NCBI RefSeq assembly: GCF_002214565.1
Contig: NZ_CP015106.1
Coordinates: forward strand, 124,001 to 188,000
DNA: 64,000 bases
Direction: 5' to 3'
DNA from: Thermococcus radiotolerans
GTDB lineage: Archaea > Methanobacteriota_B > Thermococci > Thermococcales > Thermococcaceae
Each line of letters starts with the position of its first letter. Position 1 is the stretch's first letter. Shown here one piece after another: positions 48,046 to 51,716 of this stretch. Position numbers and translations under genes: made by a program. Below the pieces are notes generated by a model. That model saw only the letters and a list, made by a program, of their open reading frames with translations. It searched no databases and was not told the origin of the DNA.

Positions 48046-48173
48046 AGAAACCACCGAACTAACATCGGCCTTTTCGTATAAAAACTTAGCGTTTCGATGA
48101 TTATCGAGAAGCTTTCAAAACCGCCTAACCTTTTTAAATCCCCCTTCTCCCTTTTATCCGGGAGGTGGCGGCC

Positions 48174-50609
48174 GTGACCGTCAAGGTCCGCTTTGACAAG
48201 GAAGTGAGAGAGTACGCGAAAGGCGAGAATGTTAAGGACTCGGTTCTCAAGCTCACGGAGACCGCTCTGGCTCAGGCGCTTGAGAAATTCCACAGGAGAA
48301 TGATAATCATAGAGGGAGATACGGTAAGAAAGGCCGAACTGGCCGGAATCCTAGCCGGCGCATCGGCCAGAACCCTGGGGGAGATTCTCGACGACCTCCG
48401 CGAGAAACGGTTGAGGGACGAGAGCGAGGACAGAATCGAACTCCTCTACGCAACCGATGCACTCGGCGAGGAGACCTTCGGGAGGAAGCGCTACGAGGCC
48501 TTCAGAAAGCACTTCGACGTTCTGGCAGGCTCGGCCGCCGAGGTTAAGGCGGTTACGTTCAAGCACACCCGCGACATACTGGGCAGGACCTTCGACATTC
48601 TCGTCCTGGACATGAGCTACGACTACTCGCCGAACGACCTCGGAAGGATAATCGAGACCGTCCGCGGCGGCGGACTCATCTTCATACTCGCCCACCCGTT
48701 CGAGAAGTGGAAAAACATGTGGACGGGCTTCCACAAGAGCCTCGTCACGCCGCCCTACACGATAGACGACGTTAAGAAGCGCTTCAACAGGCGGCTCATC
48801 AGGAAGTTCACGGAGCACGACGGCATCTACATCATCACCGAGAACGGCAAGCTCAAGAAGAAGCCGAAGAGGAACAAGAGCCAGGCGAAGATTAAATCGA
48901 GGAAAGGGGTTCCGATTCCCGAGGAGACCCTTTTCCCGCGCGAGCTGTACGAGATGGCCCTCACCGAGGGGCAGGTTGAGGTTCTGAAGGCCTTCGAGGG
49001 GCTGGTTGAGGAGGAGGGCATGCTCGTTCTCACCGCGGACAGGGGTCGCGGAAAGAGCGTCTCCGTTGGAATAGCTGCGATAGGTCTGGCCCTGGCCCTC
49101 GGAAAGCGCACGCGTGTAGTCGTGACGGCCCCCGAGCCGGAGAACGTTCAGGCTCTGTTCCGCTTCGCCAAACGTGCCCTTCAGAGGCTCGGCTTCAAGC
49201 CCCACGTCGTCGAGGAGAAGGGGCTGATCAAGGAGCTCTACGCCAGGAAGATCGGTCTGAGGTATTATCCGCCGGCCGAAGGCTACAAGAAGACGGCCGA
49301 CCTGTACATCCTCGACGAGGCGGCCGGAATCCACGTGCCTATACTCCACAAGTACCTCAACAAGCCCCGCGTTGTGTACTCCTCTACCATTCATGGCTAC
49401 GAGGGTGCCGGAAGGGGCTTCTCCGTCAAGTTCCTGAAGAAGGCGAGGGAGAAGCGCTCTTTTAAGGAGCTTCACATGGAGGAGCCCATCCGCTACGCCG
49501 AGAACGACCCCATCGAGAAGTGGCTCTTTGACGTCCTCCTGCTCGATGCCGAGCCGGTTGAGCTCACGGAGGATGACTATGGGCTTATAAAGAACAAGGA
49601 GGTCTACTTTGAGGAGCCCGACCTCGACGACTGGTTCGAGAAGGACAGAGAAGACCTGAGGAACTTCGTCGGTATCTACATCCTCGCCCACTACCGCAAC
49701 AGGCCGAGTGACGTTGCCCTGCTCGCCGACGCGCCTCACCACAGGGCCCGCGTCCTTCGCCTCAAGAACGGCAAGATAGTGACCGGAGTTCAGATAGCGG
49801 AGGAGGGCAACATACCCAAGAAGGTCATCGAGAAGATGGCAAAGGGCTACAAGCCGCGCGGCAACATAATCCCGGACATGATGGTCAAGCACCACATGGC
49901 GAAGGAGTTCGCGAAGCTGAAGGGCTACCGCATAGTGAGGATAGCGACCCATCCGGACGCGATGGACATGGGGCTGGGCAGCAAGGCGCTGGAGCTCCTC
50001 GAAAAGGAGGCCAGGGAGAAAGGCCTTGACTGGATAGGTTCCGGCTTCGGTGCCAGCGAGGAGCTCGTCCGCTTCTGGGTCAGGAACGGCTTTGCCGTCG
50101 TCCACCTGAGCCCCGCGAGAAACCCTGTGAGCGGTGAGTTCACCGCCATAGTTCTCAAGCCGATAAGCGAGAGGGCGAAGAAGCTCATCAGGAAGGCCAA
50201 CGACGAGTTCAGGATAAGGCTCACGGAGTGGCTGGGTGATACCCACCGCGAGATCGAGCCCGAGATAGTCAGGTGGCTCTTCGAGACGCCGTTCGGTGAG
50301 GCGGTGGATTATCCGATTCACCTCACAGAGGTTCAGAGAAAGCGCCTCGATGCCTTCACGGGCAAGGTTCTGACCTACGACACTGTGGTTGACGCCGTTA
50401 AGCCCATCGTGAAGCTATACTTCCTCGACGGCTGGATGAAGCCCTATCTCGACGAGAGGCAGATAAAGCTGCTCATCTACCGCGTGCTCCAGGCCCACAG
50501 CTGGGAGGAGACGGCGAGGCTCATTGACAGAACCGAAACCTTCACCATGATAGAGGTGCGCGATATCATAAGGGGACTCTGGTACTATTACAAGAGGGTC
50601 ATTTCCTGA
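48174..50609 (+). CDS. tmcA: RNA cytidine acetyltransferase TmcA (Nat10 family)
   Basis: The 811-residue protein has the TmcA architecture: an N-terminal domain, a helicase-like domain with Walker A TADRGRGKS (about residues 288-296) and Walker B YILDEAAGIHV, a GNAT acetyltransferase domain (ATHPDAMDMGLGSKALELLE, acetyl-CoA loop) and a C-terminal RNA-binding part. It makes N4-acetylcytidine in RNA using acetyl-CoA and ATP. In Thermococcus kodakarensis the homologue acetylates many rRNA, tRNA and other RNA sites and aids growth at high temperature, so the same is likely here. I chose the GTG at 48174, after GGAGGTGG, over a GTG at 48165 inside that site. Confidence 0.94.
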   Translation: MTVKVRFDKEVREYAKGENVKDSVLKLTETALAQALEKFHRRMIIIEGDTVRKAELAGILAGASARTLGEILDDLREKRLRDESEDRIELLYATDALGEETFGRKRYEAFRKHFDVLAGSAAEVKAVTFKHTRDILGRTFDILVLDMSYDYSPNDLGRIIETVRGGGLIFILAHPFEKWKNMWTGFHKSLVTPPYTIDDVKKRFNRRLIRKFTEHDGIYIITENGKLKKKPKRNKSQAKIKSRKGVPIPEETLFPRELYEMALTEGQVEVLKAFEGLVEEEGMLVLTADRGRGKSVSVGIAAIGLALALGKRTRVVVTAPEPENVQALFRFAKRALQRLGFKPHVVEEKGLIKELYARKIGLRYYPPAEGYKKTADLYILDEAAGIHVPILHKYLNKPRVVYSSTIHGYEGAGRGFSVKFLKKAREKRSFKELHMEEPIRYAENDPIEKWLFDVLLLDAEPVELTEDDYGLIKNKEVYFEEPDLDDWFEKDREDLRNFVGIYILAHYRNRPSDVALLADAPHHRARVLRLKNGKIVTGVQIAEEGNIPKKVIEKMAKGYKPRGNIIPDMMVKHHMAKEFAKLKGYRIVRIATHPDAMDMGLGSKALELLEKEAREKGLDWIGSGFGASEELVRFWVRNGFAVVHLSPARNPVSGEFTAIVLKPISERAKKLIRKANDEFRIRLTEWLGDTHREIEPEIVRWLFETPFGEAVDYPIHLTEVQRKRLDAFTGKVLTYDTVVDAVKPIVKLYFLDGWMKPYLDERQIKLLIYRVLQAHSWEETARLIDRTETFTMIEVRDIIRGLWYYYKRVIS

Positions 50610-50688
50610 CCCTAAACTAACTTTTTATAGGATTGGCGCGTAGTTCCCTCGGTATGTCATTGGTGTATCCATTCCAACGGTGACTCCT

Positions 50689-51198
50689 ATGCCGGGCGGC
50701 AACTGGGAGAAGATAATTTCGATAACGAAGGATGGCATGAGGAGCATAGGAACGATGAGACGAAAGATAAGCAGGGGTAAGAGGATAGCACTTCTCATCG
50801 ACGGCCCCAACATCCTCAGGAAGGAGTTCGGCGTCAAGCTGGAGGACATAGTTGAGGCCCTGGAGGGACTGGGCGACCTCAGGGTCTCCAAGGTGATACT
50901 GAACCAGTACGCCCCCCAGGGGCTCATAGAGGCGGTATCGAACCAGGGCTTTGAGGCAATCGTCGTCTCGGGCGAGACGGGTGTGAAGCTCGCCGTCGAG
51001 GCGATGAGGGAGATATACAACCCGAACATCGACGTTATCGCCCTGGCCACCAGAAACGCGGAGTTCCTGCCTGTGATTCTCAAGGCCAAGGAGCGCGGCA
51101 AGGAAACCATCGTCATCGGAATCGAGCCGGGCTTCTCGGCGGCGCTGAAGCATGCCGCCGACTACACCATAATCCTCGAGGGCGGTGAGGAGAAATGA
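50689..51198 (+). CDS. NYN-domain protein A (catalytic carboxylates replaced)
   Basis: The 169-residue protein has a PIN-like NYN domain: [14 protein letters not shown] (Asp38, Asn41), [32 protein letters not shown] (residues 94-106), [11 protein letters not shown] (119-128) and [14 protein letters not shown] domains usually cleave RNA. Compared with its neighbour, G-D-T-D has become G-E-T-G (Glu96, Gly98) and R-D-A-D has become R-N-A-E (Asn123, Glu125). At least two metal-binding aspartates are lost, so it may not be catalytic. It starts with ATG 50689 after GGTGA. It overlaps gene B by four bases and probably forms a complex with it. Confidence 0.8.
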
Positions 51199-51716
51199 AG
51201 GAGCGCTTTTTCAGGGTTCTGAGGCGCGGGGAGAAGGAGGTCAAGGAGGTCAGCGAGGAGACGCCCAAGCCGAAGAAGAAGAGAAGCATAGGCCTCATCA
51301 TCGACGGTCCCAACATTCTCAGAAAGGAGTTCGGGATAAAGCTGGAGGACATCATAGACGCCCTCGAGCGGATTGGAAAGCTCAGGGTGGCCAAGGTAGT
51401 TCTCAACCAGTACGCTCCCCAGGGGCTCATAGAGGCCGTCGTGAACCAGGGGCTTGAGCCGATAATAGTGGCCGGCGACACCGACGTGAGGATAGCCATC
51501 GAGGCCATGGAGCTCATCTACAACTCCGACGTCGACGTTATCGCTCTGGCCACCAGGGACGCGGACTTCCTCCCGATAGTCAACGAGGCGAAGCGCAGGG
51601 GTAAGGAGACGATAGTCATAGGGGTGGAGCCGGGCTTCTCGGTCGCGCTCCAGAACGCAGCGGACTACGTCATCAAGATGGAGGGCAAAGGTATCGACGC
51701 TCACGAGGCCAAATAG
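51195..51716 (+). CDS. NYN-domain protein B (catalytic residues intact)
   Basis: The 173-residue paralogue of the preceding gene has [14 protein letters not shown] (Asp37, Asn40), [13 protein letters not shown] (Asp95, Asp97), [11 protein letters not shown] (Asp122, Asp124) and VEPGFSVAL, the complete set of acidic residues for a NYN nuclease, plus a basic N-terminal extension (KPKKKRS). It may cleave RNA or DNA as a heterodimer with protein A. Both carry the motif ALATR-x-A-x-FLP at the same distance. The ATG lies in the stop codon region of A (ATGA), giving tight translational coupling. Confidence 0.84.

Follow-up and report, generated by a model that had tools for sequence, protein, structure and literature searches.

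A tandem pair of NYN-domain paralogues in Thermococcaceae with an asymmetric acidic site and reciprocal loss of ancestral residues

Two overlapping genes of Thermococcus radiotolerans, here named A and B, encode paralogous NYN-domain proteins, and the acidic site that is complete in B is incomplete in A (Table 1). Is A the inactive partner of a nuclease B, as an earlier note on this DNA proposed, or does it act on its own? The pair lies in a window of 64,000 nt (the whole stretch analyzed; contig NZ_CP015106.1, positions 124,001 to 188,000), to which the coordinates below refer.

The gene pair and its locus

The open reading frames, their 4-base overlap and the residues that the earlier note had read in A and B all proved correct by translation and alignment. 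The A protein (169 aa) and the B protein (173 aa) are 68% identical over 140 aa. Both exceed the cut-offs of the PF01936 NYN profile (78.1 bits for A and 91.2 bits for B; cut-off 24.2) and of TIGR00288 (206.6 and 218 bits; cut-off 178.45), an uncharacterized family (NCBIfam), and they are the only TIGR00288-family copies in the T. radiotolerans genome. The ATG at 50689, taken as the start of A, is conserved as Met in 88 of the 89 relatives; a further in-frame GTG is located at 50680. The gene upstream of A is tmcA (48165-50609), which encodes a TmcA-type RNA cytidine acetyltransferase, and profile matches downstream of B indicate a calcium/sodium antiporter and a thiamine-type binding protein. 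Because a TATA-like stretch at ~50623-50630 and a GGTGA motif ahead of the ATG can be read by eye, the sequence suggests that the pair may have its own promoter and ribosome-binding site.

Table 1. Features of the A-B locus (positions in the window)
Feature	Position	Strand	Basis
Gene A: NYN/TIGR00288 paralogue with incomplete acidic site (Asp38, Glu96, Gly98, Asn123, Glu125)	50689..51198	+	ORF, profiles, alignment
Gene B: NYN/TIGR00288 paralogue with full acidic site (Asp37, Asp95, Asp97, Asp122, Asp124) but Glu131/Arg134	51195..51716	+	ORF, profiles, alignment
ATGA, overlap of A stop and B start	51195..51198	+	sequence; 4-base overlap in 52/89 relatives
A N-terminal segment, residues 1-32, highly conserved in A; spacing like single-copy Thermococci homologues	50689..50784	+	comparison by eye
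A codons Glu96-Thr97-Gly98, replacing Asp-x-Asp	50974..50982	+	Glu 89/89, Gly 89/89
A codons Asn123-Ala124-Glu125, replacing Asp-x-Asp	51055..51063	+	Asn 89/89, Glu 89/89
A codons Lys132 to Glu135, ancestral helix residues retained in A	51082..51093	+	alignment
B codons Glu131 to Arg134, ancestral Lys131/Glu134 substituted in B	51585..51596	+	alignment

The family is present in 89 of the 94 Thermococcaceae genomes searched; four of the five genomes devoid of it are incomplete assemblies, and the other is 96% complete. In all 89, A immediately precedes B on the same strand. When the B start codon nearest to the A stop was picked, the junction was a 4-base overlap in 52 genomes and an overlap of ~50 bases in 19, the others ranging from +6 to -119. 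The earlier note had concluded from the overlap that both proteins are made in equal amounts, which is unsupported; the 4-base overlap suggests translational coupling, which varies among relatives. The surroundings of the pair are less constant. The tmcA gene is found upstream in 67 of the 87 loci having at least 800 bases of flanking sequence and is missing there in one genus (g3) and in most of another (g4), and A and B stay together at loci with changed surroundings, including those without tmcA. This permanent linkage supports a probable functional coupling of A and B and is silent on their amounts.

A functional link of the pair to tmcA was considered weak, as the pair is retained without tmcA upstream, and the regions beside the outgroup copies gave no tmcA match. 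Nor could a function be read from the outgroup neighbors, which have nothing common to the lineages; those that recur resemble, by eye and without profiles, an ATP-grasp protein, a PLP enzyme, a polyprenyl synthase and RtcA.

The constant gene order, A being encoded first and B closely coupled behind, is what would be expected of a protective partner, that is, if A were an antitoxin-like inhibitor or chaperone made first to restrain the nuclease. We regard this role as quite improbable: archaea commonly carry a single-copy relative that has the full acidic set but no such partner, and the pair is near-universal in Thermococcaceae, unlike a mobile toxin-antitoxin pair.

The acidic site and its conservation

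Across Thermococcaceae, the five acidic sites read D-D-D-D-D in B (89/89 genomes) and D-E-G-N-E in A (89/89, bar one row misaligned at Asp38), counts that represent a single ancestral event since retained and not 89 independent events. The replacements in A are thus conserved among relatives, and a return of the acids in A of other species, which the earlier note had named as evidence against the asymmetry, occurred in 0 of 89 genomes. Among the outgroups, 86 of 101 distinct sequences carry exactly the complete canonical acidic set. B and the outgroups share one residue, with an invariance of at least 95%, at 44 positions, and at six of these A was fixed for a different residue, having lost four acids, Gly33 and Asn154. 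That four of these six differences fall among the five acidic sites has a hypergeometric P of 5e-4 if positions are taken as independent.

Over 75 genome pairs in which dS was between 0.1 and 1 for both genes, the median dN/dS came to 0.015 in A and 0.014 in B. In view of these values, A is under purifying selection as strong as that on B and is not decaying. Chance or a local pseudogene as the source of the A pattern was therefore rejected, given a pattern fixed in 89/89 genomes and a dN/dS of 0.015.

Among the solved structures compared by sequence, only 2QIP was a plausible match. Asp37, Asp97 and Asp122 of B correspond to chain residues 17, 95 and 118 of 2QIP, which are D14, D92 and D115 (offset 3); Asp97 and Asp122 were matched by sequence alignment and Asp37 by the family profile. 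These 2QIP residues have been matched to D13/D118/D143 of the Bacteroides fragilis NYN protein, whose activity is abolished by D13A, and to D358/D426/D452 of MARF1 (PMC11346440). The CRISPR-associated NYN ribonuclease, MARF1 NYN and 2QIP are alike in the NYN fold and in the three catalytic aspartates equivalent to those of B; at ~15-22% identity, they are described without an inactive paralogous partner (PMC11346440). All three NYN catalytic aspartates are present in B. By alignment to the published NYN nucleases, A keeps one of these three essential residues, Asp38, the remaining two being replaced by Gly98 and Asn123 in 89/89 genomes. A is probably catalytically inactive.

Glutamate, which accounts for two of the four replacements in A, is still able to bind metal. 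A might then be an enzyme of altered chemistry, with Asp38, Glu96 and Glu125 (plus Asn123) forming a site that prefers another metal or substrate, and the two enzymes would differ in their targets. All four replacements are invariant, whereas a relaxed pseudo-site should vary, and two of them are Asp to Glu. We nevertheless hold this explanation to be improbable, as Gly98 and Asn123 substitute two of the three aspartates matched to NYN catalytic residues.

Duplication and division of ancestral features

In the tree, A and B form clades of their own (support 100/99 and 97/94), which are sisters (97/86); their neighbor in the tree is a clade (97/91) made up of copies from the other families of the class. 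Most genomes of these other families have a single match. Since A and B are sisters and the other families mostly have single copies, the tree places a tandem duplication on the Thermococcaceae stem, confined to this family. An ancient duplication shared with methanogens was ruled out: the sister clades of A and B fall within Thermococci, and the second copies of methanogens have a clade to themselves.

This separate clade (99/88) consists of a second TIGR00288 paralogue of Methanobacteria, which is similar to A in that an independent duplication left one copy with Asn for Asp122 and the other unchanged. Asn122 is present in 6 of the 7 sampled (L249, L250, L251, L253, L254 and L219), two of which also have Glu124, and Ile131 in 7/7. 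Unlike A, the second paralogue is unlinked to the canonical copy in the genomes examined, its altered copies keep Asp95/Asp97 and lose Lys131, and its origin is separate. Because the methanogen clade is separate from Thermococcaceae A, the change of Asp122 to Asn in one of two paralogues arose, on this tree, at least two times. The independent loss in the methanogen paralogue suggests that the TIGR00288 family repeatedly evolves altered partners.

Several further copies were observed. In a third, more distant NYN copy from genus g4 (L279:1501-1926, genome G077), Asn takes the place of the first Asp (NGPN), Arg that of Asp95 and His that of Asp124; this genome has six family matches in total, one of them split between frames. 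In a genome from the phylum of Methanobacteria (G140, L214), the only TIGR00288 copy found has Gly for Asp122. An Archaeoglobus-type copy in a Thermococcus sp. MAG (S139, L085), which groups with Archaeoglobus in the tree, is probably a binning error. A third TIGR00288 match of 270.7 bits (G091:C77:4331-4795), in a Thermococcaceae genome with 3% contamination, is probably the same foreign contig.

The TIGR00288/PF01936 relatives in other Thermococci, Archaeoglobi and methanogens are mostly single-copy and resemble the pair in fold, length and sequence family, with the full acidic set as in B. Among the lineages sampled, the others have one canonical copy or unlinked copies, and only Thermococcaceae have a tandem pair in which one copy lacks the acidic set and the other lacks Lys131. 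The latter residue sits on the helix after the Asp122/Asp124 motif (B Glu131 is equivalent to A Lys132, and B Arg134 to A Glu135). This position is Lys in 87/87 canonical outgroups and 89/89 A proteins and Glu in 89/89 B proteins. Glu134 is retained by A and by almost all outgroups, but 84 of 89 B proteins have Arg there. The charge is reversed between A and B at three matching positions, namely Arg/Lys107 in A versus Glu106 in B, Lys132 versus Glu131, and Glu135 versus Arg134.

The N-terminal segment was likewise divided. In A, Trp6, Glu7, Ile9, Gly16, Ile20 and Arg29 are conserved in 88 of 89 genomes, and by eye the segment resembles, with the same spacing, that of single-copy Thermococci homologues such as L191 WKKITGVGRGLTKSVGKIAKRKKK. 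The N-terminus of B, also compared by eye, is a variable basic tail in which no more than the first few of these residues persist.

As judged from the alignments, ancestral features of one chain are now divided between A and B, a reciprocal split newly described here. Because the losses are reciprocal, B cannot be viewed simply as the old enzyme, nor A as wreckage. The description as an active/inactive pair therefore holds in part: the asymmetry is real, fixed in 89/89 genomes and accompanied by constraint on A, but B, having lost Lys131 and mostly Glu134, cannot simply be equated with the intact ancestor. This division would fit complementary degeneration within an obligate partnership. The altered Methanobacteria copy lacks the same complementary pattern, as both Asp122 and Lys131 are lost from it.

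The working form of the pair

In a sole genome (L052, also L127), A and B share a reading frame, with TGA and TAG between them, and a natural A-B chain was built by reading these codons as residues. AlphaFold2 was run twice on this chain, with either A-plus-outgroup rows or B-plus-outgroup rows, and the alignments were kept separate because MAFFT places B rows on the A half when both are present. Both NYN domains folded at pLDDT ~90, including the half with its own sequence only, and the best Foldseek matches of the fold were 2QIP and MARF1 NYN. A and B are both predicted to adopt the NYN fold. With these unpaired, one-sided alignments, the pTM values of the read-through chain were 0.52 and 0.48, without confident docking, a result that weighs little for or against contact.

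The lack of predicted A-B docking from unpaired alignments is in line with separate homomers, of which B would be a nuclease and A a stand-alone nucleic-acid-binding or regulatory pseudonuclease, sharing an operon through common regulation without contact. The conserved N-terminal segment of A, predicted to be disordered on its own, could bind RNA or another partner in such a protein. We consider separate homomers rather unlikely, though worth weighing. B is altered at Lys131, a change tolerated by no canonical outgroup and unexpected if B continued the ancestral homomer, and A and B are never apart in 89 genomes.

The working form is most likely an A-B hetero-oligomer in which B would cleave and A would supply residues in trans, a reading to which the sequence comparisons lead us with about even confidence. 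Operon linkage and shared constraint would arise without contact too, which counts against it, as do the low pTM of the read-through chain and the differing pattern of the methanogen copy. The duplication, the fixed asymmetry, the reciprocal loss, the constraint, the linkage and the NYN fold come directly from the analyses above, and from them we infer the physical association, the RNA substrate and the division of labor by trans-complementation as follows. Both genes arose from a single NYN ribonuclease-type ancestor by tandem duplication at the base of Thermococcaceae. B retained the acidic metal site, expected to cut RNA in a metal-dependent manner. A lost this site and kept the Lys132/Glu135 helix motif and the N-terminal segment, which probably bind RNA or the other subunit. 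In the A:B hetero-oligomer, in the simplest case a 1:1 dimer, A would provide B in trans with substrate-binding or site-completing residues, as SMG5 does for SMG6. Lys132 and Glu135 of A are, by their conservation, candidate contributors to the B active site. Tentatively, we propose that only an A:B heteromer would rebuild the full composite site, with the acids surviving in B and the helix Lys131/Glu134 and N-terminal segment in A.

In SMG5-SMG6, the active PIN domain receives an aspartate and contacts to the substrate from the dead one (PMC12923823). This human composite PIN endonuclease is similar to the pair in that, of two paralogous PIN-like domains, one has the acidic site and the other lacks it, with a proposed division of labor (PMC12923823). 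Unlike A and B, whose partnership is deduced from sequence, SMG5 and SMG6 are separate large proteins from a different branch of the PIN-like superfamily and are biochemically proven. As part of the composite-site reading, A-B might by analogy be an independently evolved archaeal NYN counterpart of SMG5-SMG6, a possibility that we likewise put below an even chance.

Enzyme/pseudoenzyme pairs are known in the PIN-like superfamily. A search of the open-access literature, mostly titles and abstracts, returned no paper on TIGR00288 or evidently on the A-B pair. An enzyme/pseudoenzyme pair with reciprocal loss appears to be new in the archaeal NYN family.

A and B constitute an uncharacterized pair kept by nearly every genome of the Thermococcaceae, which are genetically manipulable organisms, and their residues point to a testable mechanism. 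If A-B works as a single enzyme whose active site is divided, the partnership of an active and a dead nuclease recently established for human nonsense-mediated decay would have arisen independently in archaea. The pair would then be a small, heat-stable system for studying the mutual dependence of an enzyme and a pseudoenzyme.
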